Source of the DNA: a virus
DNA: 29,417 bases
Direction: 5' to 3' (one strand)
Virus record (IMG/VR): IMGVR_UViG_3300027631_002625
Coordinates: 1-29,417 of that record
Below the pieces are notes generated by a model. It saw nothing but the letters and a program-made list of their open reading frames with translations, ran no database searches and had not been told where the DNA came from. This document shows positions 2,347 through 19,591 of this stretch, one piece after another. Within the stretch, counting starts at the first letter, position 1, and each line of letters opens with the position of its first letter. Position numbers and translations under genes: made by a program.

Positions 2347-2373
2347 GTTAGGTAAAATTTATTTTATGTCTAT

Positions 2374-2382
2374 AATAAATAT
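2374..2382 (-). promoter_or_regulatory. Promoter-like motif ATATTTATT before the tail sheath gene
   Basis: The minus strand reads acatATATTTATTatag 27 bases before the sheath ATG. A related CTATTTATA lies 50 bases further upstream at 2432-2440. Both sit in the 111-base gap between the small coiled-coil gene and the sheath gene. A dedicated promoter for the abundant sheath protein is plausible but inferred. Confidence 0.4.
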
Positions 2383-2457
2383 ATGTAGATAAGGTAAACC
2401 TACTGTTTCGGAAAGGGTATCTAACTACGTATATAAATAGACTAAAAGTTATGAAAC

Positions 2458-2703
2458 CTAAGTGACTATAGGAGTAAACTCACCTGTCTCTATATCAATA
2501 TTACCTTTCCCGTACTTTTCTTGCATTTCTTGAGCGATTTTTGTTTCGCTTTCAATTGTCTGAGAGTAGAAGGTTTCTAGTTTATATTGTCTCATTTTTA
2601 AATTAAGTTTAATTTGTCCAATTGAACTTAATTCTTCTTTGATTGCAGCATGACGCTGTTGAACTTCTTTGATTGCTTGTAACTCTTCTTGTGTTAATTT
2701 CAT
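2458..2703 (-). CDS. Small charged coiled-coil protein
   Basis: This 81-aa protein starts MKLTQEELQAIKEVQQRHAA and is almost wholly helical and highly charged, with heptad-like spacing over residues 3-60 that suggests a coiled coil. The C-terminus ends with a less helical NIDIETGEFTPIVT tail. I do not recognise a named family. A reading frame open from 2835 would add 44 residues, but that extension lies inside the end of the upstream gene and is rich in Asn, Thr and Ile in an implausible way. The ATG at 2703 is preceded by AAAGAAG and is preferred. It lies just before the sheath gene, so a role in tail assembly or chaperoning is possible but unproven. Confidence 0.75.
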   Translation of the reverse strand: MKLTQEELQAIKEVQQRHAAIKEELSSIGQIKLNLKMRQYKLETFYSQTIESETKIAQEMQEKYGKGNIDIETGEFTPIVT

Positions 2704-2749
2704 AACTTCTTTAATCGTATTAGTATTATTTAATGTATTATATCTGTAC

Positions 2750-4677: not shown

Positions 4678-5459
4678 AAGTTTATTTTAGTGGAAAGGTC
4701 TTGAGCTATGGCTTTATACCCTTCAATTGTAGGATGAACACAATTTGTAATATAGGTATCAGGATACGGCATATTAGTATAATCGTTCCAGGTTCTATCA
4801 GGTGTGTTATTTAAATTATTCAGAAACTGGTAATAATTAGTGTTTGGAGTTAGGTACCTATCCCAGTTAATTTGCATACTTAAGTTATAATGTTCATCTG
4901 GGAGAGCAGTTAAGTCATCCATAAATTCAAATGCTGATGCGAAATAAAACTCTAAGTTATTAAGTTTAGCAATCATTTGAGCTTCTAAAATATTGTGTAG
5001 GGTTTCTACTTTAGCTAAGTATTCGGTATATTCCAGTCTATACCAGTTCTCTTCTCCTGGTTTTTCTTTATTATCTCCTCCATGTGGGTAATAGGTTCGG
5101 AACCTTCTTCTATACTGTGTATACCCAGTAGGTGCCACAATATCAAATCTTATTCTACTGCTAAGCATAAAAACCATACACCCGCCTGTTATATTTTCCG
5201 GTAAAGGGTAGTGGTATAAATTTTTAACTGCTCCTCTATTTCCGTATCCTCTCATTCCTAAATTAATAGGTACATGATCTTTAAAGTAGTCTCGAGTTAA
5301 TACGTTTACCCAGGAGTTTTCTAATTCATACTTAAGAAGCTTAGGTTCAGTTTCATTATCCGATCTATCTACTCTACCTCCCCATTCTTCAAAAAATCGG
5401 TACGGTACTCCTCCCTGTCCTTGAGTCCAACTATCCCCTATTCCTACAATTACTTTCAT
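4674..5459 (-). CDS. SGNH/GDSL-type hydrolase-like protein
   Basis: This 261-aa protein begins MKVIVGIGDSWTQGQGG, with the block I GDS nucleophile motif at residues 8-10. A Gly-rich NLGMRGYGNRG follows, which fits block II. Near the C-terminus VHPTIEGY provides the catalytic histidine of block V at H242. Family members are mostly esterases, often removing or moving acetyl groups on glycans. The Asp normally three residues before the His is Asn here, and no clear GxND block III is seen, so the catalytic set is altered. It is one of three SGNH-like genes in this cluster and is coupled by ATGA to the next gene. A 64-base gap separates it from the upstream gene. Confidence 0.72.
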   Translation of the reverse strand: MKVIVGIGDSWTQGQGGVPYRFFEEWGGRVDRSDNETEPKLLKYELENSWVNVLTRDYFKDHVPINLGMRGYGNRGAVKNLYHYPLPENITGGCMVFMLSSRIRFDIVAPTGYTQYRRRFRTYYPHGGDNKEKPGEENWYRLEYTEYLAKVETLHNILEAQMIAKLNNLEFYFASAFEFMDDLTALPDEHYNLSMQINWDRYLTPNTNYYQFLNNLNNTPDRTWNDYTNMPYPDTYITNCVHPTIEGYKAIAQDLSTKINL

Positions 5460-5523
5460 AGTAGTTATATGTCTTTATACTTGTTTTTGTTAATCTAAAC
5501 GGTATCTACACTTATTAAAATAG

Positions 5524-6399
5524 TTACTCAGTACTACTAAGTAGTGAGCTCTCCTGTATGTGGTCAGGTCTCTTTACTGTATTATAGTTCCTCAACTTCC
5601 TATGGAGTTTATCAGAAAGAAGTCTATGCTGTTGTGCAGATGGATGACCACCGTCGGGAAAATCTACTTTTTTCTCGTTTATTCTATTTAAAAAGTCTGA
5701 GTAGCTATCGAGAATTGTTTCGCTTTTGTTCTTACCTAAGTATTTTTCTATTGTCTCATATGTTCTTAATGTGCATGCAATAGGTGGTTTTTTCAATCCT
5801 AAAATACCCGGTATCCACTTACTTATTTTACCTTTAATAAATGTATACTGGTTGTCTAACTCTAATGTAGTGCTTTGCCCTTCTACAATTAAAAATGGAA
5901 TTTTAGTTAATTTGTGTATAGCTTCTGCAAAATCAAATGAAATTTTTAATATTTCTCTATTAACTATATCTACTTGTTCTGTAAGGTTAATTGTGTTTTT
6001 TATATACTGTTGGAATTTCATACAATACTCCGGTCCGTTGTATTCGTATAAATCCCTAAAAGGTTCAGTTATACACCATACAATTACATCCGGAAAAGGT
6101 GTTCTACTACTACGGGGCTGTGGGGACATTCCTAGGGATTCAAATAGAGCAACTAGTTGGAGTAGGTTACTGTCCCCTCCTAATGCAAGATTACTTACTC
6201 TATATCCTCTTTTTTCTAAAAAGTAACTAATCCCGGGATGACTTACTCCATAGTTGTAGGGGAGATTAAACTTCCCAAGATATTTAGTCAGTTCCGCTAC
6301 TCCAGGACCGTATTGAGGTATTTTATACTCGTCTGCTTTAGGTAATCTATTCCATTCTCCAACAAAATTACTATCTCCTAAAAGTGTTATATTTCTCAT
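5524..6399 (-). CDS. SGNH/GDSL-type hydrolase-like protein
   Basis: This 291-aa protein starts MRNITLLGDSNFVGEW, with the GDS nucleophile motif at residues 8-10. LALGGDSN fits block II, and DGGHPSAQQH near the C-terminus gives a canonical DxxHP triad end (D249 and H252). The block III region reads CITEPFRD instead of GxND. A final 30-residue basic tail after the fold is probably disordered. The likely role is ester hydrolysis or transfer on a glycan, consistent with nearby sugar transferases. Its start overlaps the radical SAM stop codon by ATGA, implying coupled translation. The more complete catalytic set makes this the most convincing hydrolase of the three. Confidence 0.75.
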   Translation of the reverse strand: MRNITLLGDSNFVGEWNRLPKADEYKIPQYGPGVAELTKYLGKFNLPYNYGVSHPGISYFLEKRGYRVSNLALGGDSNLLQLVALFESLGMSPQPRSSRTPFPDVIVWCITEPFRDLYEYNGPEYCMKFQQYIKNTINLTEQVDIVNREILKISFDFAEAIHKLTKIPFLIVEGQSTTLELDNQYTFIKGKISKWIPGILGLKKPPIACTLRTYETIEKYLGKNKSETILDSYSDFLNRINEKKVDFPDGGHPSAQQHRLLSDKLHRKLRNYNTVKRPDHIQESSLLSSTE

Positions 6400-7460
6400 A
6401 GTAAATGGTGAAAATTATGGTTAACGTATTGTTTATTATTAACTTTTAGTAACTCCTGCATGAAAGGTAAGAAATCTTTATGCTCTTTATTAAATACTTG
6501 CATTTGGTAAACCTCCTGTTCTGTGTACTTACCTGTTCCCCAATGTATATGTTGACGAAAGTTAATAGATAATGTAAAGGTGCTATTTTTAAAAATACTA
6601 CTAATCAATGTGTGGAAGGTATCCATTTCCTTATAGTTTTTTTCACTTACTACCATGGAGATGATAACTTCTGAAAGTGTCGGTATAGTGCTAATAAATT
6701 CTAGGTTTTGTAGAAGTTTATCCCATTTTCCTCCTAATCTTGTTACGTTTTCGTATGTTTCTTTCGTACCTGCATCTATACTAATTTCAATCTGTTTAAT
6801 ATACGGACCAGCTTTGAGTTTATCCCAAAGAGATTTGTCCAGCATTTTTCCATTCGTAATTATTTGTATATTTTCTAGAGAAGGGTATTTACTTTTATCA
6901 AAATTCAGTAAAAAGTCCCTATAAATATTAGAATAAAATGGATCCCCAGAACCAGTCACTACTATTTTTTTTAATGTAGGCCCTAATTTATTTTCTACTA
7001 CTTCCAGTAAATCTACCTTAGCTTTATGTTCCTTCGAATTAATTTTACTATTAGGTATTAGGTTAATTCTACAGGAAGGGCATTTTAAGTTGCAGCTTCT
7101 ATCCCAACCGAATAATACTTCCTCAGGACCTTTTTCAAATTTATCTACATCTTCAACAGTTTTAATATCATATTTTTTTTCAAATTCTTCTTTTGTGTAA
7201 AAATTGTACGGCTTTAAACCGGTATTAAGGAGGGAACTTAAGGAAGGACATATTTCATGTTTACAGTGTCTATAGGATCCGTCTACTACGGATTTACGTA
7301 TATCTTTAGCATTAGAAGAATTCCAATCTAAATCTTCACCAGCTCGGATGTTGGTAGGGCACCAAGATGGACAACAGACGTAATCTGCATCTGTCTGTAT
7401 ATCTATATACTCAAATGGATGTTTACAGACGTATTTATTTAAAACCTCTTTAGAGTTCAT
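6396..7460 (-). CDS. Radical SAM protein
   Basis: This 354-aa protein carries the radical SAM signature CxxxCxxC (C123, C127 and C130 in SCNLKCPSC), which would hold the 4Fe-4S cluster that cleaves S-adenosylmethionine. VTGSGDP at residues 168-174 fits the GGE motif position, and ITNGKML and ISIDAGT fit later beta strands of the barrel. An extra Cys-rich N-terminal region (CC at 29-30, C34, C66 and C71) could bind another cluster or zinc. This is unusual because auxiliary clusters of SPASM and twitch proteins are C-terminal. The substrate is unknown. It sits between SGNH-like genes, with an 11-base overlap upstream and ATGA downstream, so a glycan or small-molecule substrate is plausible. Confidence 0.85.
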   Translation of the reverse strand: MNSKEVLNKYVCKHPFEYIDIQTDADYVCCPSWCPTNIRAGEDLDWNSSNAKDIRKSVVDGSYRHCKHEICPSLSSLLNTGLKPYNFYTKEEFEKKYDIKTVEDVDKFEKGPEEVLFGWDRSCNLKCPSCRINLIPNSKINSKEHKAKVDLLEVVENKLGPTLKKIVVTGSGDPFYSNIYRDFLLNFDKSKYPSLENIQIITNGKMLDKSLWDKLKAGPYIKQIEISIDAGTKETYENVTRLGGKWDKLLQNLEFISTIPTLSEVIISMVVSEKNYKEMDTFHTLISSIFKNSTFTLSINFRQHIHWGTGKYTEQEVYQMQVFNKEHKDFLPFMQELLKVNNKQYVNHNFHHLL

Positions 7461-8247
7461 TTAGAAATGGTATTATAATTTGTTTGGTAAACTCGTAATG
7501 TTCTTCTTCTGAGGGGTGGTGTTCTTTTATATAGTCTCTATTTGGGTTGAGTTGAGAAATCCATTCCCATTCACCTTCGACAGGGATAAATTTGCTCCAT
7601 TCTATTAAATCTGAAATCCATTTTAAATCTGGTTTAGCCAGGTCGGGGTGGCTTCCTATATTTTGGTTTTTAGTTTCGGATGTACCTTTGTACTGTCCCC
7701 AATGATCCCATTTAAATTCAAAGATATTCCATGCGTTTGTCATAAAGTACTTTACTCCGGCAGATTCTAAGAATTTCTGTGTGTACAGTATATCGTGAAG
7801 TGTGCTAATTACTCCTCCTATAGGGTTATGAAAATACTTATAATATTGTTTTTGCAATACTCCCTCATGTGAAAGTAGCAAAGGTTTCCAAACGGTATCT
7901 AAACTCTCAGGTATGAAGTTATAGGCATCTACCCATACTTTTCCGGTCTTATCTTCATTTAAGATATTTTTATCAAAATGTATACCTACTCTATCTGGTC
8001 CGGACCACATAACGCCAACCAGTATGTCTTCCGGTTTATATGTTTTGAGTAATTCCGATACTCTATAAATAATTCTCATTCTTATGAGATTGTTTGACTG
8101 ACCTCCTCGACCTTCATTAAACCAATCCTTTATGTTTAATTGGTCTGCAAGTTGTTTAGGCCAAGTTTTATAAGAACGCCAGTTTTGTGTATCGGAAAAA
8201 CTACATCCAGATGTAGCTACTACTTTGAAATTTGTTCCTGAATCCAT
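7450..8247 (-). CDS. SGNH-like protein with GCS in place of GDS
   Basis: This 265-aa protein has an N-terminal block ATSGCSFSDTQNW in which GCS (residues 14-16) takes the place of the SGNH GDS nucleophile motif. NEGRGGQSNN then fits block II, and a C-terminal EHHPSEEEHYEF gives HP at residues 244-245. Such GCSFT/GCSFS proteins are common in marine phage glycan clusters and look like a divergent SGNH subfamily. The protein is rich in Trp and Tyr in the middle, which could form a carbohydrate-binding surface. It overlaps the epimerase gene by 28 bases and the following radical SAM gene by 11. The hydrolase call is structural inference; activity is uncertain. Confidence 0.6.
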   Translation of the reverse strand: MDSGTNFKVVATSGCSFSDTQNWRSYKTWPKQLADQLNIKDWFNEGRGGQSNNLIRMRIIYRVSELLKTYKPEDILVGVMWSGPDRVGIHFDKNILNEDKTGKVWVDAYNFIPESLDTVWKPLLLSHEGVLQKQYYKYFHNPIGGVISTLHDILYTQKFLESAGVKYFMTNAWNIFEFKWDHWGQYKGTSETKNQNIGSHPDLAKPDLKWISDLIEWSKFIPVEGEWEWISQLNPNRDYIKEHHPSEEEHYEFTKQIIIPFLNEL

Positions 8248-9179
8248 TTATAGGTTTTTTCTAGTCCGTGTTTCAAAGTAGCTGTTGTTTTCCAGCCCAC
8301 ATGTTTTTCAAAAAGCGTATTATCGGAGTTTCGTCCCCTTACTCCCAAAGGTCCTTTTATATGTTTGAACGTAATATTTTTACCCGATATTTCCGTAATA
8401 TATTCGCCAAGTTGGTTAATAGTTACCATTTCTTCTGAGCCAATATTAACAGGTTCTTTAAATTCGCTTTTCATTAATCTGATAACTGCTTCGATACATT
8501 CGTCAATATATAGAAATGATCTAGTTTGTAATCCGTCGCCCCAAATTTCAATTTCTCCTCCATCATTACATTCAGCTATCTTTCTACATAGTGCAGCTGG
8601 TGCTTTTTCTTTACCGCCATTCCAGGTACCTTCTGGGCCAAAAATATTATGAAATCTAGCAACTCTAATATCAAGTTTGTAATTTCTATTAAAAGCAGCA
8701 AATAACCTCTCACTAAATAATTTTTCCCATCCGTATTCTGAATCCGGTTGTGCTGGGTATGCAGAAGATTCCTCACAGTTAGGGTTATTAGGGTCTAATT
8801 GGTTGAATTCAGGGTACATGCATGCTGAGGAGCTATAGAATACTTTTTTAACTTGTTTTTTAACGCATTCATATGCCACATGAAGATTAATTAATGCTGA
8901 GTTATGCATTACGTTGGCATCATTTTCTCCTGTAAATATATACCCTGCTCCTCCCATGTCTGCAGCAAGTTGGTAAACTTCATCAAAAGGTCTATCAATT
9001 ACTTTTTCTACTACCAAAGCATCTCTAAGATCCCCGATTATAAAATTATCTGCTGTTGTAGGTGAAAAATCAGGATATTTTAAATCTACTCCTCTTACCC
9101 AGTATCCATCCTTTTTAAGTCTTGTAACTAAGTGAGAACCTATAAATCCTCCTGCTCCTAAAACTAATGCTGTTTTCAT
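8220..9179 (-). CDS. GDP-mannose 3,5-epimerase-like SDR enzyme
   Basis: This 319-aa extended short-chain dehydrogenase closely resembles plant GDP-mannose 3,5-epimerase, which converts GDP-D-mannose to GDP-L-galactose (and GDP-L-gulose). The NAD-binding loop GAGGFIG is at residues 8-14. Diagnostic blocks are LAADMGGAGY, SSACMYPEF (with catalytic-type C120), YGWEK (Y149, K153), ARFHNIFGPEGTW, KEKAPAA (K192), WGDGLQTRSF and GVRGRNSDN. In the Arabidopsis enzyme the equivalent Cys and Lys perform the epimerisation and Tyr/Lys the redox step. All are kept here, so activity is likely. A promoter-like motif lies 13 bases upstream of the ATG. It could supply an unusual sugar donor to the transferases around it. 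Related epimerases of bacterial surface-sugar pathways are the main alternative. Confidence 0.85.
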   Translation of the reverse strand: MKTALVLGAGGFIGSHLVTRLKKDGYWVRGVDLKYPDFSPTTADNFIIGDLRDALVVEKVIDRPFDEVYQLAADMGGAGYIFTGENDANVMHNSALINLHVAYECVKKQVKKVFYSSSACMYPEFNQLDPNNPNCEESSAYPAQPDSEYGWEKLFSERLFAAFNRNYKLDIRVARFHNIFGPEGTWNGGKEKAPAALCRKIAECNDGGEIEIWGDGLQTRSFLYIDECIEAVIRLMKSEFKEPVNIGSEEMVTINQLGEYITEISGKNITFKHIKGPLGVRGRNSDNTLFEKHVGWKTTATLKHGLEKTYKWIQEQISK

Positions 9180-9192
9180 ACAATCTATTTTA

Positions 9193-9201
9193 AATAAATA
9201 T
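9193..9201 (-). promoter_or_regulatory. Promoter-like motif ATATTTATT before the epimerase gene
   Basis: The minus strand reads agtATATTTATTtaaaatag in the 45-base gap between the lipoprotein and epimerase genes, 13 bases before the epimerase ATG. It matches the motif seen before the sheath, tube and lipoprotein genes. Promoter function is inferred. Confidence 0.35.
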
Positions 9202-9224
9202 ACTTATCATTTTTAAACTACAAA

Positions 9225-10403
9225 TTATTTTATAGTAAATTTTAAACCGTTCCATTCCCAACGTGGAAATCCTAAACTTAAATTTCCTTTGTCAGTAGAT
9301 ATTATATCTATATTTCCATTTTTATCTATATCTTGTACTCTTATCCATATAGCCCATCTAAGTTTGTCAGCTAAAGTGTTATCGGTAATATTATCAATAA
9401 TTTGGTAATCCTTTGTACTTATAATATCAATATAGTACCCTTCATATACATTTTTATATCTTCCAGCTATAATTTCTATGTGTCCGTCTTTATTTATATC
9501 AGCAAAATCAAAATCTACAGTTCCTTCCCAAGGTGCAGTGAATGGTAAAATTTTTGAACGTTCGTAGGTAAAGTCCACTCCATTGCCAAAATATACTCTA
9601 GATTGAAGATTATTTTCGTCTCCTCCTCCAATAAGGTCTAAATATCCGTCGTTATTTAAATCAAATAATTCAACAGTAACAAACCCTTGATGACTAGTCT
9701 CTGGAGGTAGTTTTATAATATCTGTCTCTACAAAGGTACCGTCTCCGCTGTTTAGAAATGTTAGTCTACTGTGTTGTGAAGACATAATAATATCTAAATC
9801 TCCATCATTATCTATATCTCCTGATGCACCGGTGTGTAAGTAGTGCTTAGACTCAGACAAATTTATAAGTTCATAGCCGGTATCGGTACTAATTAGTAAT
9901 GTGGGAGTTGTTCCTTCTGTTGGCCACATATCAATACCTTGTTCTGGGTAAGCTACGTCTGGTTTACCGTCATTGTTAAAATCCCCTAATAGTCCTTTAC
10001 GTGCATTAAATGTACCTACTTCTCCTTCAATATCAAAAGGTGTTAATTTAAAAGTCTCATTATCCCCTTGATTTTTAAAAAACTCAAGAGGTAAATCTCC
10101 ATACCCGCCAGCATTTTCATATAAGGAAGGTGCTGCCATCCAATCTTCAAACCCATCACCATCAAAATCAGCTATTACTTCTGGGCAACCATAGGCGGTA
10201 GTTCTGAAATCGATATTGTTCTCTTCAAGTACTTTATAGTAATCTATCCAAATAGTAGATTTAGATAATTCATACGAAGTATTATAATAGGATCTAACTT
10301 TTTGTTCAACTGTAACCGGAACTTGTAAACTCTCTAGTGTATCTTTTTGACAAGAACTAATTAAACTTACTAGACATACTAACCAAATACTATTCTTCAA
10401 CAT
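9225..10403 (-). CDS. FG-GAP/VCBS-repeat lipoprotein
   Basis: This 392-aa protein begins with a signal peptide and a lipobox, LISSC, with lipidated Cys at residue 18. The mature start CQKDTLE partly resembles the QKDDE-type lipoprotein export signal described for surface lipoproteins of Bacteroidota. The rest is a repeat protein with six calcium-type D-x-(D/N)-x-(D/N)-G-x-x-(D/E) loops, at about residues 79, 141, 196, 248, 302 and 358, as in FG-GAP beta-propellers. It is likely made in the infected cell and anchored to the envelope, perhaps on the surface. It has gaps on both sides and its own promoter-like motif, unlike the coupled enzymes around it, so it may be separately expressed. Roles in blocking superinfection or binding glycans are guesses. 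Confidence 0.85.
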   Translation of the reverse strand: MLKNSIWLVCLVSLISSCQKDTLESLQVPVTVEQKVRSYYNTSYELSKSTIWIDYYKVLEENNIDFRTTAYGCPEVIADFDGDGFEDWMAAPSLYENAGGYGDLPLEFFKNQGDNETFKLTPFDIEGEVGTFNARKGLLGDFNNDGKPDVAYPEQGIDMWPTEGTTPTLLISTDTGYELINLSESKHYLHTGASGDIDNDGDLDIIMSSQHSRLTFLNSGDGTFVETDIIKLPPETSHQGFVTVELFDLNNDGYLDLIGGGDENNLQSRVYFGNGVDFTYERSKILPFTAPWEGTVDFDFADINKDGHIEIIAGRYKNVYEGYYIDIISTKDYQIIDNITDNTLADKLRWAIWIRVQDIDKNGNIDIISTDKGNLSLGFPRWEWNGLKFTIK

Positions 10404-10422
10404 AACCTTTATTTATTTATTT

Positions 10423-10438
10423 ATATAAATATAAGAAC
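10423..10438 (-). promoter_or_regulatory. Promoter-like motif before the lipoprotein gene
   Basis: The minus strand reads GTTCTTATATTTATAT, ending 19 bases before the lipoprotein ATG. It is an exact 16-base copy of 25-40, beyond the tail terminator. An overlapping palindrome atttatataaat (10419-10430) is also present. Two identical copies before separate transcription units favour a promoter or operator. Confidence 0.45.
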
Positions 10439-10439
10439 T

Positions 10440-11756
10440 TTATACCGGATTACCTACTTTACCTACAAATACATCCCAAATATTTTGTAACATATCTAAT
10501 GTAGGCTTTTGGTGAATATGTACACCATTTTCAGTATAAAACCTATCAGTAGTTCTTTTCCTCATTACCTCCTTGTTGTGCTGGCAGATTGGTAGCATCT
10601 CTTTTCTCATTACTTTTAACTCTTCTTGAGGTAGTCTACTTAATTTTTTCAGCTCTTCTAAAATTTTGTTAAACCTTTTACTGTGGTTTATTTCTAAGTC
10701 GTAGGATTCGTCTATCCATTTATCAAATGTTCTAAAACCTTGATTATGTAGCCAATTTAGTACACCTGGGCTACCTACGATTAAGAATGGTACCCCTACT
10801 ATTATAGGTTTCCAGGTTTTTTCTGAAATAAATAAGGTATCGGTACAGTACTGGGTTTCTGTAACTATATTTATAAAGGTTCTTTCGTAATCGTCTAGCG
10901 GAACATGAACTGTTATGTCATCTGTAGTATTATCTCTATCTATAAATAAAGGAGATTTGGAGTACAATTCTTCTACATACGGAGTTAAAGTATTATCCAT
11001 GGCATTTATTTGTTCCATATTAGGTGGGAATAGACCATTAAAGCTACTTAACCCTTTATTAAATAAACCCTCTTTCAGTAATTTAGAAGCTATATAAATT
11101 CTATGTGTTCTAGGTCTTCTTGAATAATTTAAAAATAGGTATTTTTCATCTACAGGTTTAAATTCTAATGCATATGTTGGAAATTTAAAAACACTATTCC
11201 AACATTCTTGCACTGTTACAGGATTTACAGTAATTCTAGATTCTTGTTTTTCTGCTATAATTTTACTCTTCAAATTACCGTTAATATACACAACATCAAC
11301 AGGGTCTATTCTAACTTCTACAGCCCAGTCGTGTATAGTTTTAAAGTCTTTTGTGGAACCGCTTTCTTTAACCCCTGAGTATCCTTCAATATCTTGGCAT
11401 ATTACTAGCTTACATTTTTTATTCCTTATATCTTGCAGTATTTCTTCATCTATACATTTAAAACCGGTATTTTTATTTCTTAAAAAATACAATGGTTCGT
11501 AAACATCAATAAAGTAGAGATAAGTAGATTTACCTACAACCTCTTTTTTGTCTACGTATTGACTGTTGGGTATTTCCCTATGTATAAAGTTTCTTAAGTC
11601 TACTTTATCAACTGTCTTAATTAAATGTGGTCCTAAATTAGGTGGAAATCTTAAATGTTCTGGTTGTTTATTCCAATCAGGTGAGACTCCACTAGGCCTG
11701 TAAAAGTCTAGTTCAGAGTCCCACTCTTCTCGTACTATTTTAATAACACTACTCAT
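10440..11756 (-). CDS. SEKTW-type glycosyltransferase
   Basis: This 438-aa protein has a C-terminal Rossmann-like half typical of phage GT-B glycosyltransferases. LNYSRRPRTHR (residues 209-219) is followed by a (L/I)LxEGLxxKG helix. INIVTET, FISEKTWKPI (308-318) and GVPFLIVGSPGVLNWL come next, and GFRTFDKWIDESYD (340-353) closes the block. In relatives the SEKTWKP segment is placed at the donor-sugar site, much as in fucosyltransferase and exostosin folds. The N-terminal 200 residues are poorly conserved and probably bind the acceptor. It overlaps the upstream radical SAM gene by 8 bases. The 353-aa protein at 3616-4677 looks like a degenerate relative. Transferase function is likely; donor and acceptor are unknown. 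Confidence 0.7.
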   Translation of the reverse strand: MSSVIKIVREEWDSELDFYRPSGVSPDWNKQPEHLRFPPNLGPHLIKTVDKVDLRNFIHREIPNSQYVDKKEVVGKSTYLYFIDVYEPLYFLRNKNTGFKCIDEEILQDIRNKKCKLVICQDIEGYSGVKESGSTKDFKTIHDWAVEVRIDPVDVVYINGNLKSKIIAEKQESRITVNPVTVQECWNSVFKFPTYALEFKPVDEKYLFLNYSRRPRTHRIYIASKLLKEGLFNKGLSSFNGLFPPNMEQINAMDNTLTPYVEELYSKSPLFIDRDNTTDDITVHVPLDDYERTFINIVTETQYCTDTLFISEKTWKPIIVGVPFLIVGSPGVLNWLHNQGFRTFDKWIDESYDLEINHSKRFNKILEELKKLSRLPQEELKVMRKEMLPICQHNKEVMRKRTTDRFYTENGVHIHQKPTLDMLQNIWDVFVGKVGNPV

Positions 11757-13194
11757 TTAGTTTTCTGCATTCTTCCCAAAAGTTTTCAAATTCTGGGAAT
11801 GTTTTAATAAAATCTGTACCTCTTCTTTCGTCATGTGCTTTAAAAAACCTATAAAAATTTGACCTGCTTCTTTTTATCTGTTCTTCATCATGATCTGCTT
11901 CCATCCAATCTGCTATTCTGGATAATTTGTCAATTTCTATATCTGTATATCCTGCGTACCAAGGTTCCCATTCTGGTGTATCCCAAGTTTTAATTGTTCT
12001 CAAGCTTTCTCCAAAAGCGGCATACTCTCTAACTTTTTTTGCCCATTCTTTTGGTAGTACATTAACTGCTTGATGAGCAGGATGTCTTAAGTAAGAAGAG
12101 TCTAAGAAAATAGAAGGACACCAGTATCTGTCTGCACTATTATGTTTCTTTTTCATTTCGTAAATAAAGTACATTAAGTCTTGATATCTCGGTATAGAAA
12201 GTGCATTAAATGTAGACATACACACTACTGATATTCTTTTAGTGCAGGATAACACTTTATCTACGTTATCTCTCCATTGCTTCCAATCAAATCCATTTCT
12301 AATATAGTCTGCTTGTTCTCCGGAGGTATCTGCAGATGTATAGAGGACTAATTCTCTTACAAGGCCTTTGCTTTCAATAATTTTAATCTTTTCAATTAAC
12401 TTATCTATAAGTTTATCTGGTACACCTAAGTTTGTGTTTATACCTAAAACTAACTCTCTATTAGGATTTTCATTATCTATAATATAATCAAGTACTTTCC
12501 AAGTATCGTCTGAAAGTAGAGGTTCTCCTCCTGTAATTCTAAAAGTATGTAAGTCCCTATATAAATCTGGCCACCAATCCCAAAATGCTTCTACATATGG
12601 ATTGTACTCATCATGATGAAATGGCATTTTACCTTGGTCTTCTAACCACTTTATATCGTTAAAGTTATCATCAGTTGGGTACCCTCCGTGTTTTTTAGAT
12701 TCTACTACCCATGCAGAAGAAAAAGATGGACCGCAGTAAGAGCATTTAAAATTACATTTATTAGAAAATGCTACTTCTACATATTTAGGATTATAATCCT
12801 CACGCCAATCCCCTTCTTTAATCTCTTCTAAGTACTCTCTAGACCAGGGTTCATAGGATTTATATATTCTGTCTGAAAGTTCATTTGAAGTATCTTCTAC
12901 TCTCCAGCAATAATCACACTCAGAAGGTCTTTCGCCTTCTAGCATTTCTTTTCTTTTTTCTTTTTTGAATTTTGTGTTGTGGAGTGCTGATGGATTCCTT
13001 TTTAGTTCTCCTGTAGGTATTTTATGTGTGGCAGGGTGGTGGCAGGAATGGGTTTCCCCCATTTGTAGGTGAATGGTAGTCTGTGTCCATTTTGCAAGGC
13101 AGAAACCTGGGCCAACTTCATCTAATTGTTTTTTGTAGTGTTGGATCTTTTCTTTTTCCCCCCAACCCTTTTGTACTTCTTCTTCGTAACTCAT
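11749..13194 (-). CDS. Radical SAM protein, twitch/SPASM-like
   Basis: This 481-aa protein has CxxxCxxC in NKCNFKCSYC (C147, C151 and C154), the cluster that cleaves S-adenosylmethionine, and the GGE motif TGGEP at residues 221-225. N-terminal cysteines at 51, 93 and 96 (SCHHP, ECDYC) resemble the extra metal-site cysteines of twitch-type proteins found in T4-like marine phages. I chose the ATG at 13194, which overlaps the upstream stop codon as ATGA; an ATG 27 bases earlier would lie within the upstream gene. The substrate is unknown. Its position directly after two galactosyltransferase-like genes suggests it modifies a sugar or glycopeptide. The stop is TAG, one of the few in the window. 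Confidence 0.87.
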   Translation of the reverse strand: MSYEEEVQKGWGEKEKIQHYKKQLDEVGPGFCLAKWTQTTIHLQMGETHSCHHPATHKIPTGELKRNPSALHNTKFKKEKRKEMLEGERPSECDYCWRVEDTSNELSDRIYKSYEPWSREYLEEIKEGDWREDYNPKYVEVAFSNKCNFKCSYCGPSFSSAWVVESKKHGGYPTDDNFNDIKWLEDQGKMPFHHDEYNPYVEAFWDWWPDLYRDLHTFRITGGEPLLSDDTWKVLDYIIDNENPNRELVLGINTNLGVPDKLIDKLIEKIKIIESKGLVRELVLYTSADTSGEQADYIRNGFDWKQWRDNVDKVLSCTKRISVVCMSTFNALSIPRYQDLMYFIYEMKKKHNSADRYWCPSIFLDSSYLRHPAHQAVNVLPKEWAKKVREYAAFGESLRTIKTWDTPEWEPWYAGYTDIEIDKLSRIADWMEADHDEEQIKRSRSNFYRFFKAHDERRGTDFIKTFPEFENFWEECRKLNE

Positions 13195-14603
13195 AGTTCT
13201 ATATTTAACACTTTTGCCCATGGAGTGAGTATAGTCTCACTTTTTAGGGTATATTTTACTTGTTTAATTCCATCTTTTTTGTGGTCAATATTACCTTGTT
13301 GCATCTGTAATACGTATCTTTCTTCATTTTTAGCAGTAGTATCTCCTTTTGACCATTTTCCATCAACCAATCCTTCGTCAACATGAGGAAGACAGGTAAA
13401 CCTACCTTCAACTCTGTATGGTAGAATAGAGTTAGGAATATTAATTAAGTCGTTATGTTTTACAGTACCTAAATTTAAATAGTCCGTATTAGGGGTATTG
13501 AAATCTAAATCCACTACTAAGTCTGTAGAGGGTATATCGTTATGTAAATTACTAACCTGTTCAGGAGTGAGTTTTTCTTTCCATGCATATACTTTAGCAA
13601 TATCTCCTTTAAAGAATTTAAACGTACAGTCATCTGGAAGAGATGGTGTTGAACCGAGGTAAATATCCTGCTGCCCGTAACTTTTTAACTTACCGGTATA
13701 CTGTAGAGGAGAGTTACTTCCATGGCCAGCTTTAGAGTCTACTTCTGTACCGTTTAGGTAAAAATGAGTCTGTCTATTTTCAGCATCAAAAACAGCTGTT
13801 ACCCAACTCCACTGGTTATCGTATCTTTTAATCCACATGTAATTATGGTTATTAAACGTATTCCAGTAAGTAAGTGATAATGCTCTTGAATTATTAAAAG
13901 ATAGTCCGTAATCGTATCCGGGTATTCTCAAAATAGGATACTCAACGTATTGGTTATTTTTATCCCCAATTAAAAATATAGGATTTTTATCTGGTTGTTG
14001 AAAAGGTCTAGTAAGTACGGAAATTGTGTGTGATTTTGATGTAAGTCCTCGAGTATTCCTAGAGAAAGGAATTTTTATATAAGAATCCACACCATTAAAT
14101 GAGTAGTAAGATTGATCTAAATCACTTTTTAGGTATGTATCGTTAGTATACCCTTCTTTGTGGCAGCGCCAAAATAAGTCATCATCCTCCATACCCCAAT
14201 CCCAATACTCATTGGAATATCCGTTTGTTTTTTCAACTTGTTCTTTTGTGAAAACCACTGCACCTCCAAAATATTCATGATATTTAAGTTGATACTCCAT
14301 TTGAGAAATTTGAGTAGCAATATGTCTTGGATTATCCTGGGGGTATGAGTAATCTGCTCCTCCGTCTACATCTGGTATCATATCAATATCGTGCCAAACA
14401 ATGTAATCACATCCTTCTTCAAAAGCATGTTTAGCAGCAATATTTTTAGTTGCACCTCTATTGAATAGTTTACTATCATCCTGGTGACAAAAGTAAATAT
14501 GGAAATCTATTCCTTGCTCCTTTAGGTATTTTCCAACTTTGGGTACAAAGGTATGTAAATGTTCTTCTCTATTTCTATACGGTACGCAAACTCCTAATTT
14601 CAT
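13191..14603 (-). CDS. Beta-1,4-galactosyltransferase-like (GT7) enzyme with inserted LamG-like domain
   Basis: This 470-aa protein matches the beta-4-galactosyltransferase family in an ordered way. VPYRNREEHL is at residues 7-16, FNRGATKN at 47-54, HDIDMIP with the metal-binding DxD at 71-77, YFGGAVVFTKEQ at 111-122 and the substrate motif WDWGMEDDD at 134-142. Residues about 165-360 are a LamG/concanavalin-like segment (SFNGVDSYIKIP, FYLNGTEVDS, KFFKGDIAKVYAWKEKLT). After it, PYRVEGRFTCLPHVDEG with H407 and a KKDGIKQVKY segment resemble the C-terminal end of GT7 enzymes (RMIRHSRD, DGLNSLTY). The LamG part thus appears inserted inside the catalytic domain. It lies 7 bases from a tandem relative and overlaps the next gene by ATGA. 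Galactose or GalNAc transfer is inferred. Confidence 0.8.
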   Translation of the reverse strand: MKLGVCVPYRNREEHLHTFVPKVGKYLKEQGIDFHIYFCHQDDSKLFNRGATKNIAAKHAFEEGCDYIVWHDIDMIPDVDGGADYSYPQDNPRHIATQISQMEYQLKYHEYFGGAVVFTKEQVEKTNGYSNEYWDWGMEDDDLFWRCHKEGYTNDTYLKSDLDQSYYSFNGVDSYIKIPFSRNTRGLTSKSHTISVLTRPFQQPDKNPIFLIGDKNNQYVEYPILRIPGYDYGLSFNNSRALSLTYWNTFNNHNYMWIKRYDNQWSWVTAVFDAENRQTHFYLNGTEVDSKAGHGSNSPLQYTGKLKSYGQQDIYLGSTPSLPDDCTFKFFKGDIAKVYAWKEKLTPEQVSNLHNDIPSTDLVVDLDFNTPNTDYLNLGTVKHNDLINIPNSILPYRVEGRFTCLPHVDEGLVDGKWSKGDTTAKNEERYVLQMQQGNIDHKKDGIKQVKYTLKSETILTPWAKVLNIEL

Positions 14604-14610
14604 ACATATT

Positions 14611-15918
14611 TTAATTTATTCCTACTTTGACAAGCAAAGTTGAGCGTTTATGTTTTTTACTGTGTACATGGTACTGACAGTTGTTAAGACCGTCCTCCGT
14701 GTTTTTATACTCATCAGAGTTAATTTCATTATTGTATCTTAACTGATTCCACCTAGTCAGGTCGTCTTTCCATCTACCGCCTATAAAACCTGAGTCTTCA
14801 TGGGAAAGTACGGTGTATTTACTCATTCTCCTATAGGGAATATAGCCATTATAATTTATAGGTGCTTTAAACTGTTTAAATTCTATATTATTAAGTTCTG
14901 CATTCCTATTATATGTGGAATGATCTTGCCATTTATAATCTTTAGTAACGGTACTGTAATAGCTACACTCTGTATTACCTTTACTGCCCTCTATGCTAAA
15001 TGAATCAATACTTCCTTTAAATTTATTTCCAAGATCGCTACTACTTCCTATAAATATATGTTTAGCCCTACTGTAGTTATATAAGCGGTTATTTAATACA
15101 ACTTTGCTTATTTTTCTACCGTTATGTATTAATTCTACTGTTTTACTAGAAACATTATGAATAACTTCTAGTTCATTAGCATTGTTTCCAATAGGATCAG
15201 TAACTAATTGGTAGAATTCTCCTTTCGAATCAAAAAACTGTACGGTAAGTCTTCTGAAAGAAGAATAAAAAATATCAAAATTATATCCACTGTCAATATT
15301 TAATAAGTTAAATTTATCTTGATCTTTATTTAAATCGTATGCCACTTTTCCTAACCTCATACTAATTTTAATATGAAAATCTCTAACCACTTTAAGACAA
15401 TTTTCAACTTTTATGTACGAGGTTAAACCGTTAAAGACTGCTACTTTATCTACTACTTCAATTTGTGTATTCAAATTTTTAGCAAATTTAATACCATTAC
15501 TAACACACCTATACCTTAAATCATCATCTTCATATCCCCAACCCCAATAAACATTAGAGAATCCGTTTATTTTTTCAAAAATCTCATTAGGGAATAATGT
15601 TATTCCGCCAAAATAGCTCTCAAAAGGTAAATTAGCAGTTGCAAGGTGTATAGGAACATCACTATAGGAGTAGTCAATATCATCTGGAATCATATCGATA
15701 TCGTGAAATACTACATAAGTGCACTTAAGTTTTTTAGCTTCTAAGAACCCTATATTACATAACATTCCTCTATTAAATGCTGCTCCATTATCTTGTTCTA
15801 CAACTATAATTTCAAAATCAATTCTCTGTCTCTTTAACTGCCGTTTTATCTTAGGAACAAAGTGGGAGTAGTGTCCCCATCTATTCCTAAACGGAACTAC
15901 TACTCCTAACTTATTCAT
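14611..15918 (-). CDS. Beta-1,4-galactosyltransferase-like (GT7) enzyme with inserted LamG-like domain, second copy
   Basis: This 435-aa relative of its downstream neighbour has the same order of parts. VPFRNRWGHY is at residues 8-17, FNRGMLCNIG at 48-57, FHDIDMIPDD at 71-80, SYFGGITLF at 101-109 and WGWGYEDDD at 125-133, close to the GT7 consensus. A LamG-like region follows at about 158-310 (AVFNGLTSYIKV, ELIHNGRKIS, FIGSSSDLG). The GT7-type C-terminus then resumes with PYRRMSKYTVLSHEDSG (H373 as likely metal ligand) and NTEDGLNNCQYHV at about 406-418. The two copies are quite diverged outside the motifs, so the duplication is old or they were acquired separately. It overlaps the upstream 61-aa gene by 8 bases. 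Confidence 0.8.
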   Translation of the reverse strand: MNKLGVVVPFRNRWGHYSHFVPKIKRQLKRQRIDFEIIVVEQDNGAAFNRGMLCNIGFLEAKKLKCTYVVFHDIDMIPDDIDYSYSDVPIHLATANLPFESYFGGITLFPNEIFEKINGFSNVYWGWGYEDDDLRYRCVSNGIKFAKNLNTQIEVVDKVAVFNGLTSYIKVENCLKVVRDFHIKISMRLGKVAYDLNKDQDKFNLLNIDSGYNFDIFYSSFRRLTVQFFDSKGEFYQLVTDPIGNNANELEVIHNVSSKTVELIHNGRKISKVVLNNRLYNYSRAKHIFIGSSSDLGNKFKGSIDSFSIEGSKGNTECSYYSTVTKDYKWQDHSTYNRNAELNNIEFKQFKAPINYNGYIPYRRMSKYTVLSHEDSGFIGGRWKDDLTRWNQLRYNNEINSDEYKNTEDGLNNCQYHVHSKKHKRSTLLVKVGIN

Positions 15919-16096
15919 TAGTGTCTATGTACTTTTTTTTCCAAAGATCTAAATACCATGCAATTCTTTCTCCCCATTCGTCCTTATCTACTTCTTCAAA
16001 CCATAAAGTTAAGGCGTCTATAGAGTTAGCAATTTTTTCTAAAGCTTTTACTTGTCGTTCTTCTAATGAAGGAAGGTCTACTTTTTTATTACTCAT
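15911..16096 (-). CDS. Small helical protein of unknown function
   Basis: This 61-aa protein, beginning MSNKKVDLPSLEERQVKALE, is charged and helical with two Trp-containing segments (ALTLWFEEVDKDEWGERIAWYL). Its start overlaps the upstream glycosyltransferase stop as ATGA and its end overlaps the next gene by 8 bases. This tight packing on both sides supports a real gene. I do not recognise a family. It may be a small partner of the enzymes beside it. Confidence 0.7.
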   Translation of the reverse strand: MSNKKVDLPSLEERQVKALEKIANSIDALTLWFEEVDKDEWGERIAWYLDLWKKKYIDTNE

Positions 16097-16932
16097 ATTG
16101 TAACAATTTTATTAATTAATGAATTCCAATGTGTATAATCCATATAGTCAATATATGAACTTTCTTTTAATATTTCAACTAAATACTCACTATTATTTAT
16201 GTCTATTTTATCTCCTGTGTTTTTAATTGCATCGTACATAATCTTATACTCCTGAGAATATGCATACTTCATATTGGTATTAGCTACTTTTTTAATCCTA
16301 CTAATACATGTAGAATCCCATTTAAAATGATGTACTTGTGTGAATACTTCTTCTATGGGCATTCTTTTTGGGTGTTTTTTGCCCCAGCTATTTGTACCGT
16401 CTTGGAATTGGGCGTAATGTTGACCGGGAGTAATGTCTTGATAACCTTTCATTAAGGTTACTTTATTTGGACAAGCTCCAGACATAGGGTATCTAAAAAA
16501 TCCAGCCAGTGGGAAAGTCTTATGTAGATTCGTGTCTCTGTCAACTATTGGGAAAGTACCATCTATACCTATTCTATCTAAGAACCCGCCTGTGACAAAG
16601 TCATAACCGCTTCTTTCACATTTATCTATAATGTCTTCGATTGGTTCTGGGTATACCTGTAATTCATCATCATCTGAAACTATCCACCACTCGTTTGGTT
16701 TGGTTCTTTTAGTTTCATTGTATAAATCTGTAACTTTATTCCAATTATATTTTGGTTCAGTTACAACTTTATATGGTGTGATTCCTAAATCCTCTACCTT
16801 TTCTAAAATATCATCTCTTTCGGATTGTCTATATACTACTACATACACTTTATCTACCTTATCTTCATAATGTTTTAACATATGAGGTAAGATGTGTGTA
16901 TTCTCTCCGACTACTGTAACTAAGTTAGGCAC
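16093..16932 (-). CDS. Glycosyltransferase, GT2-like (GT-A fold)
   Basis: This 279-aa protein has a GT-A pattern. It shows an N-terminal VTVVGENTHILPHMLKHY, a KVYVVVYRQ strand, and WWIVSDDDELQVYP at residues 82-95 with DDDE at 87-90 as the metal and nucleotide-sugar site. VTGGFLDRIGIDGTFP and a FPLAGFF segment follow, as in GT2 and GT92-like enzymes that read a glycan-transfer acceptor. QVHHFKWDST near residue 210 resembles the late His-containing motif of that group. It overlaps the methyltransferase gene by 8 bases and couples to the 61-aa gene by ATGA. Donor and acceptor cannot be read from the sequence. Confidence 0.75.
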   Translation of the reverse strand: MPNLVTVVGENTHILPHMLKHYEDKVDKVYVVVYRQSERDDILEKVEDLGITPYKVVTEPKYNWNKVTDLYNETKRTKPNEWWIVSDDDELQVYPEPIEDIIDKCERSGYDFVTGGFLDRIGIDGTFPIVDRDTNLHKTFPLAGFFRYPMSGACPNKVTLMKGYQDITPGQHYAQFQDGTNSWGKKHPKRMPIEEVFTQVHHFKWDSTCISRIKKVANTNMKYAYSQEYKIMYDAIKNTGDKIDINNSEYLVEILKESSYIDYMDYTHWNSLINKIVTI

Positions 16933-17686
16933 GCTGTAATAATGTTATTCCTGTTGAGGATGGTTTATCTGGTAATTGACCTGAATTAAAGAAGTTAAAT
17001 TGTTTCCATTCCGGACCAATCTCTTTTATGAATCTTGGTGGGCCGTCAAATAAGTCGTAATACTCTTTTTCGTCTTCTGTAATAATTAATTCTTTCTGAA
17101 ATGTTTCATCTGTATCGTGGATGGAGATCATTCCATTTGGAGCTAATAGTTTTGAGTACAACTCAAAGTCTTTTTTAACATCTTCATAAGAATGTCCAGC
17201 ATCTATATGTAGAAAGTCTATTTTAATATCCTGTTTTACAAAGAAATTATAATAGGCGTTTTCGGTAGTCTCTTTTATAAATCTTGGATTAAATTGGTAT
17301 CTAAAGTAGGAATTATCTTCTAAGTAATCAGGCGTACCGCCTACTCCGTTAGCTGCGTCGACAAGGTATGTTACACCTATATCACCCCAATTGTAGTCTT
17401 TATCGCCTTCAAATATACCTTGATCATGTAGATCTATTCGGGCTTGAGTCATAATACGGGGAATAAATCCTCCACCGGAACCTAAACATACTACCGTCTT
17501 GTACCTCATTAACTGAATAATGGTGTATACTAGTAATCCGTCTCCTAAATGATTTTCGGTAGCTCCGTGTGTCCACCTAAACGGTACAGGTCTGTAATCG
17601 AGTACTTCTGTTCCGTCCGGTCTATTTCTAACAACCTTATTACTTGTAACGTGAGTTTTAACAAACTCATTATTGATTATAGACAT
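16925..17686 (-). CDS. Class I SAM-dependent methyltransferase
   Basis: This 253-aa protein has the Rossmann motif I as VVCLGSGGGFIPRIM (GSGGGF at residues 69-74). Later come IDFLHIDAGHSYEDVKKDFE (about 156-174) and LLAPNGMISIHDTD, the pattern of the Methyltransf_24 group that includes sugar and natural-product O-methyltransferases. The Asp, His and the HDTD motif may bind a metal. It lies one base after the upstream transferase gene and overlaps the next one by 8 bases, so it is part of the glycan operon. The likely role is capping a sugar hydroxyl with a methyl group, inferred from family and neighbours. Confidence 0.82.
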   Translation of the reverse strand: MSIINNEFVKTHVTSNKVVRNRPDGTEVLDYRPVPFRWTHGATENHLGDGLLVYTIIQLMRYKTVVCLGSGGGFIPRIMTQARIDLHDQGIFEGDKDYNWGDIGVTYLVDAANGVGGTPDYLEDNSYFRYQFNPRFIKETTENAYYNFFVKQDIKIDFLHIDAGHSYEDVKKDFELYSKLLAPNGMISIHDTDETFQKELIITEDEKEYYDLFDGPPRFIKEIGPEWKQFNFFNSGQLPDKPSSTGITLLQRA

Positions 17687-17687
17687 T

Positions 17688-18542
17688 TTATCTCTTTTTA
17701 ATACTCGATAGGTCTAAGTTAGGAAAATTTATACAATTTAACAAATGTTTCATTTCTCTATCGTAATTTTGATCTGCTTTATTATTAAGTATAAATCCTT
17801 TTAGTGGTCCGTAATGTTTGAATAGAGTTAATGCTTCTTCTTCTGACCATATGCCTTTATCATGTTTATTCCCCCATTTCCATTCTTTGCAGTCCCAGTA
17901 GTTAGAAAGTATACTTCTATGTTCTATGCCTTTTTTATTCAACATATGACTTAATAGTAGCTGTTCAGCGAATATAAGGTACTGAGAATTTGGTGCTTTA
18001 AGGAGAGTAAATTCTTCCATCATATTAAGACTTTCATTTGCATACTCTCTAGTAAAAAGTGGATCAGGTAAGTTTAGGAAAGAAACGTTCACAGATTCTG
18101 TTTTCCATCTAGGTTTATAAGTAAGTTTTTGTACATATGGATCTATAGCTGTAGGATAGTATCCTTTACCTACCTCGTAATTAGTAACATATACTTTAGA
18201 TAAGTCTAAATAATGTTTAAAAGGTTTATAGATATGTGTATCATTATCCATTAGGATTACTGGCTCACTTACTTCAGCGAGTACCTGTAATTTAGCTGAA
18301 GCCCAGAAAACTGATTTATTAATTTTTCTTGATGGTGGGAGTGGTAGTATTAAATCCCAAAATGATATAACTTTCAATCTATCTAGTAGATCTATAGTCA
18401 TATCATCTGCGTAAAGTGCACAGGTATCCTCTGGATGATTTTTTTTCCAGAGGTGTACCGATGCTAAAAGTAAGAGTATATTGAATTTGCTGTAAAAGCT
18501 TTTATTCTTTTCTATATTTTCTAAAACCCAAATTATTTTCAA
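17688..18542 (-). CDS. DxD-type glycosyltransferase-like protein with TTG start
   Basis: This 284-aa protein resembles GT-A transferases of capsule clusters. FWASAKLQVLAE leads into PVILMDNDTHIYKPF, whose DND (residues 99-101) is the likely DxD metal site. A later NVSFLNLPDP and AEQLLLSHML fit the acceptor half. The frame opens at a TTG codon with an in-frame TGA three codons before it. A nearby ATG at 18551 is in another frame and stops after 16 codons. TTG initiation is therefore the simplest reading, though a one-base frameshift at the 5' end cannot be excluded. It is the first enzyme of the cargo cluster after the fibre block. Confidence 0.68.
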   Translation of the reverse strand: MKIIWVLENIEKNKSFYSKFNILLLLASVHLWKKNHPEDTCALYADDMTIDLLDRLKVISFWDLILPLPPSRKINKSVFWASAKLQVLAEVSEPVILMDNDTHIYKPFKHYLDLSKVYVTNYEVGKGYYPTAIDPYVQKLTYKPRWKTESVNVSFLNLPDPLFTREYANESLNMMEEFTLLKAPNSQYLIFAEQLLLSHMLNKKGIEHRSILSNYWDCKEWKWGNKHDKGIWSEEEALTLFKHYGPLKGFILNNKADQNYDREMKHLLNCINFPNLDLSSIKKR

Positions 18543-18562
18543 AACCTTTCATTATTTAGTTA

Positions 18563-19018
18563 TTACGGTGAAACGTGTGTTGTAGTAAAGTACGCATAAT
18601 ACGTAGTTGCTTGTGCTGTACCTGTTGTAATTGTTAGGGTACTTGAAGCAGTGACTTGACTTCCACCTCCATTTGTGCCTGTTCTCCAACTATGGAAAGT
18701 GTATGGATATGTTGCAGAAGCAACAATTGTGGGGTTATATATTCCAAGGTCCATATTTTTTATAGTAAAACTTGTAGATGAACCTATTGAATACGGTGCG
18801 GAAAGGGATATAGTCCCTCCTGTATTTGCTACTGCGCTTCCGTAAAAACAATCTGTTCCTAAAAGAGTAGAAGCAGACCATGGTGCTGATTGAGTTGGGT
18901 ACCAATCGCCTAGTGCGCTAGGAAGGTTTGCGTTTGTATCGCTGGAGACGTTATTAGCCCATATATCAAATGTGCTAAAGGCTATTGGACCGCCGGGTGA
19001 ATATGAATGGTATGACAT
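18563..19018 (-). CDS. Small beta-rich, probably structural protein
   Basis: This 151-aa protein is rich in Ser, Thr, Gly and Ala with few charged residues, as in tail accessory proteins. The C-terminal YPYTFHSWRTGTNGGG and TTYYAYFTTT resemble the F-x-x-W ... Y-A-x-F spacing of bacterial Ig-like or InlB B-repeat domains, a weak resemblance. I do not recognise the N-terminal half (IAFSTFDIWANNVS). It follows the second S74 fibre and a 182-aa protein, and precedes the glycan cluster, so a minor virion or fibre-tip role is likely but unproven. Confidence 0.6.
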   Translation of the reverse strand: MSYHSYSPGGPIAFSTFDIWANNVSSDTNANLPSALGDWYPTQSAPWSASTLLGTDCFYGSAVANTGGTISLSAPYSIGSSTSFTIKNMDLGIYNPTIVASATYPYTFHSWRTGTNGGGSQVTASSTLTITTGTAQATTYYAYFTTTHVSP

Positions 19019-19021
19019 GTT

Positions 19022-19570
19022 TTAAACAGTTTCTATTTTATTTTCAGGAAAAAACTCCTTCAATTTATTATATACTTGTCTGTAACCGAACTTGTATATA
19101 TTATCTACAAGACTTATATTTATTACGTTTCTTTTTTCACTCTTGGATCCAACTTTAACTGTATCTTCTGATGTAACGGTGCGAAATAATGTTATCTCGT
19201 CACCGTTTTCATCAAAGCTTGTATAAGGAACTTCCTTACTTATAGTTTTAGTTTCATAAATTGGTACCTCTATCTCCTTCTCTTCTGCAATATCTACCTC
19301 AATCATGTGAGGGACTATTACTTCTACTCCTTCCGATGTTTCACCTTCAAAGTAAAGAATTCTTTCTTGTACCAATCCAACCATATTCCTTTGCTCTTCT
19401 TCTACATATTCCCTATTGAACGCAGTAGCATGGTCTTTATCTATCCAATATGTCAATTGAAACCTAGCTTTCGCTGTTACTCTATTTACAACTAGACTCT
19501 CGATTCTCACGTACACTTCATGTGAAGGTCCGTTACTAGTCTCAAGATCAACATTTAATTTGTAACCCAT
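19022..19570 (-). CDS. Unknown, probably structural protein
   Basis: This 182-aa acidic protein starts MGYKLNVDLETSNGPSHEVY and alternates predicted beta strands with a charged middle (EKEIEVPIYETKTISKEVPY, residues 95-114). No family is recognised. It lies 21 bases after the S74 fibre and 3 bases before the next gene. Position in the adhesin block suggests a tail or baseplate accessory. The reading frame, its codon context and tight spacing support a real gene. Confidence 0.6.
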   Translation of the reverse strand: MGYKLNVDLETSNGPSHEVYVRIESLVVNRVTAKARFQLTYWIDKDHATAFNREYVEEEQRNMVGLVQERILYFEGETSEGVEVIVPHMIEVDIAEEKEIEVPIYETKTISKEVPYTSFDENGDEITLFRTVTSEDTVKVGSKSEKRNVINISLVDNIYKFGYRQVYNKLKEFFPENKIETV

Positions 19571-19591
19571 GTTTTTCTATTAATATATGAA

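Follow-up and report, generated by a model that had tools for sequence, protein, structure and literature searches.

How is a LamG-like domain built into a galactosyltransferase-like enzyme of an uncultured tailed phage, and what might it do there? The question is raised by two neighbouring genes in IMG/VR record IMGVR_UViG_3300027631_002625, of which positions 1 to 29,417 were analyzed (referred to here as the window, 29,417 nucleotides). The initial annotation had described in both products, P1 and P2 (Table 1), ordered N-terminal motifs of glycosyltransferase family GT7, a LamG-like stretch of 150 to 200 residues and a C-terminal part resembling the end of animal beta-4-galactosyltransferases (beta4GalTs), and had proposed an insertion within the catalytic fold rather than an end-to-end fusion.

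Table 1. Positions in the window of the two GT7-LamG genes, their domains and the adjoining cassette genes, with the supporting evidence.
Feature	Position	Strand	Evidence and remarks
P1	13191-14603	-	470-aa ORF
P1 residues 1-157, N-terminal GT7 core	14133-14603	-	Pfam PF13733 and PF02709; PDB matches to beta4GalT1/T7; VIA-align Z 27.9
P1 residues 158-393, LamG/pentraxin-like insert	13425-14132	-	PF13385, 53 bits; model; missing in compact GT7s
P1 residues 394-470, C-terminal GT7 core	13194-13424	-	Compact-GT7 C-terminus profile, 1.1e-10; packing in model
P2	14611-15918	-	435-aa ORF, neighbour of P1
P2 residues 1-150, N-terminal GT7 core	15469-15918	-	Pfam and PDB matches; model
P2 residues 151-359, LamG-like insert	14842-15468	-	Pfam, 16.9 bits (weak); model, residues ~155-352
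P2 residues 360-435, C-terminal GT7 core with His373	14614-14841	-	Compact-GT7 C-terminus profile, 6.1e-8; model
Class I methyltransferase (Methyltransf_24)	16925-17686	-	Pfam, 8.5e-12; homologue in 143 of 160 related loci
GT2-like glycosyltransferase	16093-16932	-	Glyco_tranf_2_4, 6.8e-5 (weak, below Pfam cut-off); 151 of 160 loci
Twitch-domain radical SAM protein	11749-13221	-	NCBIfam NF033640, 8.5e-103; 154 of 160 loci; overlaps end of P1

Architecture of the paired GT7-like proteins

Glyco_transf_7N and Glyco_transf_7C were found above the Pfam cut-off in both proteins (E values of 1e-16 to 1e-22), and a phmmer search against the PDB connected the N-terminal 150 residues of each to beta4GalT1 and beta4GalT7 (1e-24 to 1e-28). 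PHROGs gave marginal matches for P1 and none for P2, and NCBIfam gave none for either. The N-terminal motifs were present in the order first described, VPYRNR, FNRG, HDID, YFGG and WDWGMEDDD in P1 and VPFRNR, FNRG, HDID, YFGG and WGWGYEDDD in P2, and proved invariant or nearly so across 246 homologues. Behind this core, Laminin_G_3 was well above the Pfam cut-off of 27.6 bits in P1; the P2 score was below the cut-off, but the model of this protein matches LamG folds. The presence of a LamG-like domain thus stood, whereas its length had to be corrected to ~210 to 240 residues, because the final LamG strands come after the Pfam match.

Whether this domain is nested or appended turns on the C-terminal segment, for which compact GT7s served as a comparison. 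These proteins of 220 to 300 aa, without LamG, were found by a scan of bacterial genomes with the family profile and exist in other viruses as well. They hit the family profile at positions 2-154 and 396-466, with 155-395 missing; the two pieces are contiguous in the compact protein, and ~240 residues separate them in the phage proteins. The same two-piece match was repeated in dozens of compact GT7s (in L179, for example, residues 19-180 match profile positions 2-153, and residues 181-246 match 396-467). Conversely, a compact profile matched residues 2-154 and 396-461 of P1 and residues 2-147 and 349-431 of P2, and detected a separate C-terminal piece in 530 of 550 LamG-type ORFs. Even a profile made from the C-termini of 81 compact LamG-free GT7s, and nothing else, recovered 50 of 50 C-terminal segments of the phage family, one weakly (0.018) and the other 49 at E values of ≤6e-6, and the hhalign probability was 98.8%. 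The two strong decoy matches of this profile belonged to ORFs of the same phage loci; one of these ORFs also bears a LamG of the phage family, and both are taken to be truncated copies.

The structural models gave the same picture. AlphaFold predictions built from 91 homologues for P1 (pLDDT of 94.2 and pTM of 0.87) and 86 for P2 (94.3 and 0.90) both show a GT-A fold that can be laid over the known GT7 structures. With VIA-align, the P1 model aligned from residue 1 to 470 with bovine beta4GalT1 residues 180 to 398 (214 residues, 1.9 Å, Z of 27.9) and the P2 model from 1 to 435 with residues 179 to 399 (209 residues, 2.2 Å, Z of 26.2), the C-terminal segments packing into the GT7 core in both. 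When the insert was removed, the joined P1 sequence gave an unbroken alignment with human beta4GalT7 (2-225). This joined-sequence search, suggested by the initial annotation, worked for P2 with beta4GalT7 (3-210) but not with beta4GalT1, where the match ended at 147.

The alternative would be an end-to-end fusion, in which a truncated GT7 is followed by LamG and then by an unrelated tail with chance similarity to GT7. It could appeal to the weakness of the tail when compared alone with solved GT7 sequences, since a profile of the phage C-termini reached beta4GalT1 in the PDB at a nonsignificant E value of 0.33 and unrelated arenavirus glycoproteins at 0.17; the link of the tail to GT7 is clear only via the compact GT7s and the model. 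Set against it are the scores of the compact C-terminus profile, the adjoining two-piece matches, structural alignments that cover the full span of both proteins and the unbroken alignment of joined P1. As the models and the C-terminus profile agree, the insert lies inside the catalytic fold, and the fusion, to which we give next to no credence, is already refuted. Neither of the two outcomes that the initial annotation had named as refuting its reading, a C-terminal segment left outside the GT7 core in the predicted structure or the lack of a profile match of this segment to GT7, was observed. That LamG is nested inside the GT7 core of P1 and P2 is nearly certain. The C-terminal part was also read correctly as the end of a beta4GalT-type core with its metal-binding His, as profile and model agree and this residue is invariant.

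The point of insertion can be located with some precision. In compact GT7s the motif RCxxxGL...RRxGxFxxLxH is uninterrupted, whereas in the phage proteins the order is RCxxxG, LamG and PxRRxGxFxxLPH. We take this point to lie between residues ~331 and ~335 of beta4GalT1, past the helix of the xED base and ahead of the strand that ends at His347. The C-terminal core that follows in P1 carries the metal-binding His407, N426, R429-Y430 and D444-G445. In beta4GalT1 the metal site comprises Asp254, His347 and Met344, and the N-acetyl pocket Arg359, Phe360 and Ile363 (PMC7565966). The R-F pair of this pocket was aligned with R429-Y430 in the profile alignment, and Ile363 is not preserved as such in the phage proteins. 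Acceptor sites of GT-A enzymes are known to be shaped by three hypervariable positions, the beta3-alphaC loop, the beta6-beta7 segment and the tail after beta8, and the loop holding the insert is not among them (PMC7185993). By our own assignment, the insert falls between helix F and beta8 and would be a fourth place beside these three.

The phage proteins share with animal beta4GalT1 and beta4GalT7 (CAZy GT7; 1tvy and 4irq) the GT-A core, the motif order, the DxD, the xED base, the metal His and a Tyr at the donor-selecting position (Z of 26 to 28). Unlike the animal enzymes, they have no type II membrane anchor or stem, their N-terminus being already the first strand of the core (E3-9 and E4-10 in the two models), their core is split by LamG before the strand leading to the His, and Met344 is replaced. 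The closest insert-free sequence relatives are the compact bacterial and viral GT7-like proteins (e.g., L167, L168, L174 and L305), with N-core identities of 51% for L168 and 45% for L167, and with the shared C-terminal motif R-x-G-x-F-x-x-L-x-H...N...DGL.

As to the insert itself, residues 163-390 of the P1 model aligned with the LamG of PAPP-A, pentraxins and 4dqa (Z of 18 to 21), and residues ~155-352 of the P2 model with the LG domains of PAPP-A, laminin and agrin (17 to 18.6). Fold and strand order are those of LamG/pentraxin domains (Laminin_G_3), which are usually free-standing or joined end to end, while the phage copy is anchored at both ends in a glycosyltransferase. A circularly permuted LamG was also tested, because the end of the insert bears a YYDxxx...DLSxNxNxG motif that opens many LamG repeats; it was rejected, as the unpermuted order scored at least as well as permuted profiles when compared with free-standing LamG proteins of phages, and the alignment with pentraxin structures follows the unpermuted order. 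Many relatives encode, a few genes further downstream, free-standing LamG proteins of 220 to 260 aa that resemble the insert by descent (e.g., L050:8941-9675, L070:8945-9679 and L149:12231-12902) and might be its origin or its partner.

Conservation, history and distribution

Pattern scans of viral contigs provided 178 and 161 relatives, 80 loci being kept from either set, and conservation was assessed in the 246 nonredundant full-length proteins that these loci contain, nearly all of 440 to 500 aa. In P1 numbering, the positions that are invariant or nearly so are P8, R10, R12, F47-N-R-G50, H71-D-x-D74, Y111-F-G-G114, W136-G and E139-D140 in the N-terminal core, and P395, R397, H407, N426 and G445 in the C-terminal core. 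D72, D74, E139, D140 and H407 (H373 in P2) are invariant, and Tyr111 is kept in 245 of the 246 sequences. Other positions changed by clade. In the P1 clade WGWG is replaced by WDWG and the equivalent of Met344 is Cys, this last position being Val in P2, and 32 of the 122 members of the P2 clade have N or T at the Asp319 equivalent. These changes at the G313, M344 and D319 equivalents could be taken to mean that P1 and P2 are degenerate, inactive lectin-like relatives of GT7, a reading that we consider most improbable in view of the DxD, xED base and C-terminal His, all invariant in the set, and of FNRG, which is nearly so.

The proteins occur almost always as a pair. Exactly two copies were found in 154 of 163 loci, and 14 of 16 larger records (156 to 336 kb) contained just one pair. 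A third, divergent GT7-LamG clade is encoded 5' of the usual pair in two loci (L069:2669-4144 and L073:2859-4346), and in the L088 record a third GT7 match (G006:C1:14846-15082) is found within an open frame of 820 aa distant from the pair.

GT7 ORFs from all the loci fetched fell into two length classes, compact without LamG and mostly 420 to 500 aa with LamG, and no other type of insert was seen among them. A tree of 63 LamG-type and 58 compact sequences was built from the core, leaving out the insert. In it, the LamG-type sequences made up one side of a branch with an SH-aLRT support of 81, inside which the P1, P2 and rare third clades were recovered with supports of 99, 98 and 100. The simplest reading of this topology is a single insertion followed by an old duplication.

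The GT7-LamG arrangement is common to hundreds of uncultured phage sequences. A tblastn search of 50,697 isolate phage records with P1, P2, a compact GT7, the radical SAM protein, the GT2 and a DUF6734 protein gave no match, whereas the tail sheath, used as positive control, matched 2,616 isolate phage records. In the open-licence literature, we found no description of a GT7 with LamG or of a lectin inserted in a glycosyltransferase. The paper on moraphages, a large aquatic phage lineage, reports core glycosyltransferases and mentions neither LamG nor galactosyltransferases.

Possible roles of the nested LamG

The insert evolves faster than the enzyme that holds it, with identities of 43% against 72% for the core within the P1 clade and of 34% against 59% within the P2 clade. 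The insert residues that are conserved differ between the two clades, and the P1 clade has a strongly conserved set of its own (E221, N237, S239, R240, K259 and W265). Such fast change combined with conserved residues proper to each clade is what one would expect if a recognition module had ligands that differ, and leads us to favour LamG as the part that would bind the acceptor or its carrier. The initial suggestion that the two copies use different acceptors receives indirect support from the clade-specific changes flanking the xED and from the differing sets of LamG residues.

LamG folds also work in protein-protein contact and oligomerisation. In active GT7s, LamG could then be a pentraxin-like module for docking to the virion, the membrane or the tandem partner, or for oligomerisation, with no contact with the acceptor glycan, which we think possible if somewhat doubtful. 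The nearest folds are pentraxins and the LamG of PAPP-A, which act by assembly or protein contact besides sugar binding, the pair is almost always kept together and translationally coupled, and the insertion falls outside the loops known to shape acceptor sites. On the other side, a putative carbohydrate-binding protein from Bacteroides (4dqa) and a sialidase CBM40 (6er2) are among the structural matches, and the conserved P1 set resembles a ligand site; none of these points decides the matter.

A role of LamG as a regulator, in which a bound ligand would move the C-side strand and its His and so switch metal binding and catalysis, seems very unlikely to us. It would fit the location of the insert between the helix of the catalytic base and the strand bearing the metal ligand, and in beta4GalT1 the segment past the metal His is a mobile loop; the models, however, are confident in one state. 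Returning to the favoured recognition module, a bolder version would be a lectin nested in the catalytic machine, which relays engagement of the carrier or glycan via the strand to the metal His, so that the enzyme is active on the correct target only. We regard this version as unlikely. If true, it would mean that acceptor specificity in GT-A enzymes can arise outside the three known hypervariable regions.

In GT27 enzymes the lectin is an R-type trefoil joined end to end at the C-terminus, and the lectin domains of glycosyltransferases are usually attached at one end. The lectin-like domain of the phage proteins differs in being a LamG and in being nested within the catalytic fold. GT27 polypeptide GalNAc-transferases, a family akin to GT7 (PMC7185993), combine a GT-A catalytic domain with a lectin domain that steers acceptor choice (PMC4432651).

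The glycan cassette and its putative product

The two genes belong to a conserved, operon-like cassette with the order methyltransferase, GT2-like glycosyltransferase, P2, P1 and twitch radical SAM, the homologues of which were found in 143 to 157 of 160 related loci. In most pairs the tandem GT7-LamG genes overlap, by 4 bases in 91 pairs and by 1 base in 33. The compact viral GT7s are not in such a cassette. The radical SAM protein accompanies the GT7-LamG pair almost everywhere, and in one locus (L086:4175-6919) an ORF of 914 aa joins a P1-type GT7-LamG to the radical SAM; as the end of P1 is lost and the ORF may reflect a frameshift instead of a true fusion, it was not used as evidence.

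In the window, the cassette is flanked on one side by a tail fibre with an S74 chaperone domain and on the other by the tail sheath. The sheath and tube proteins are 68 to 81% identical to those of Flavobacterium phage immuto, in which several structural genes flanking the region on both sides also have counterparts and the interval from tail fibre to sheath is ~2.4 kb long, with only small genes and a lysozyme. In the window, the same interval is an island of ~17 kb (2347-19591) abundant in glycan and radical SAM genes. It includes a second radical SAM gene (6396-7460), with a twitch-family match below the family cut-off, and a gene for a protein with FG-GAP repeats and a signal of lipoprotein type (LISSCQ; 9225-10403). 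This protein, not found in the 160 related loci, is an unusual cargo for a phage.

Taken together, P1 and P2 would be phage-encoded GT7-type enzymes with a GT-A fold that transfer sugars with inversion and depend on a metal. A Tyr at the position of bovine Tyr289 favours Gal. Tyr111 probably stands for this residue, hinting at UDP-Gal as donor, and Arg429-Tyr430 would stand for Arg359-Phe360 of the N-acetyl pocket. With the residues of GT7 chemistry kept, our best guess is that galactose is transferred from UDP-Gal, in a Mn2+-dependent reaction, onto a HexNAc-like acceptor. LamG, anchored to the active site at both ends, would bind either the glycan under construction or the protein or lipid that carries it, and present it to the active site. 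The two copies may act sequentially with the GT2, the methyltransferase and the radical SAM protein to give a short capped glycan. Most likely, this glycan would be placed on tail or virion proteins of the phage itself, or alternatively on the host surface, a placement that we infer from the genomic neighbourhood only. To the scheme as a whole, in which nested-LamG GT7s build a glycan and LamG presents the acceptor, we would give an even chance.

Described here is a GT7 with a nested LamG, whose architecture is well supported and whose function is putative. A GT-A enzyme has accepted an entire LamG between its catalytic base and its metal ligand, and the arrangement is preserved in a tandem pair. 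The finding draws attention to a conserved glycan cassette of phages, absent from the cultured ones searched, and may offer a testable case of GT-A acceptor recognition gained through domain insertion, for which the compact GT7s are ready insert-free controls.
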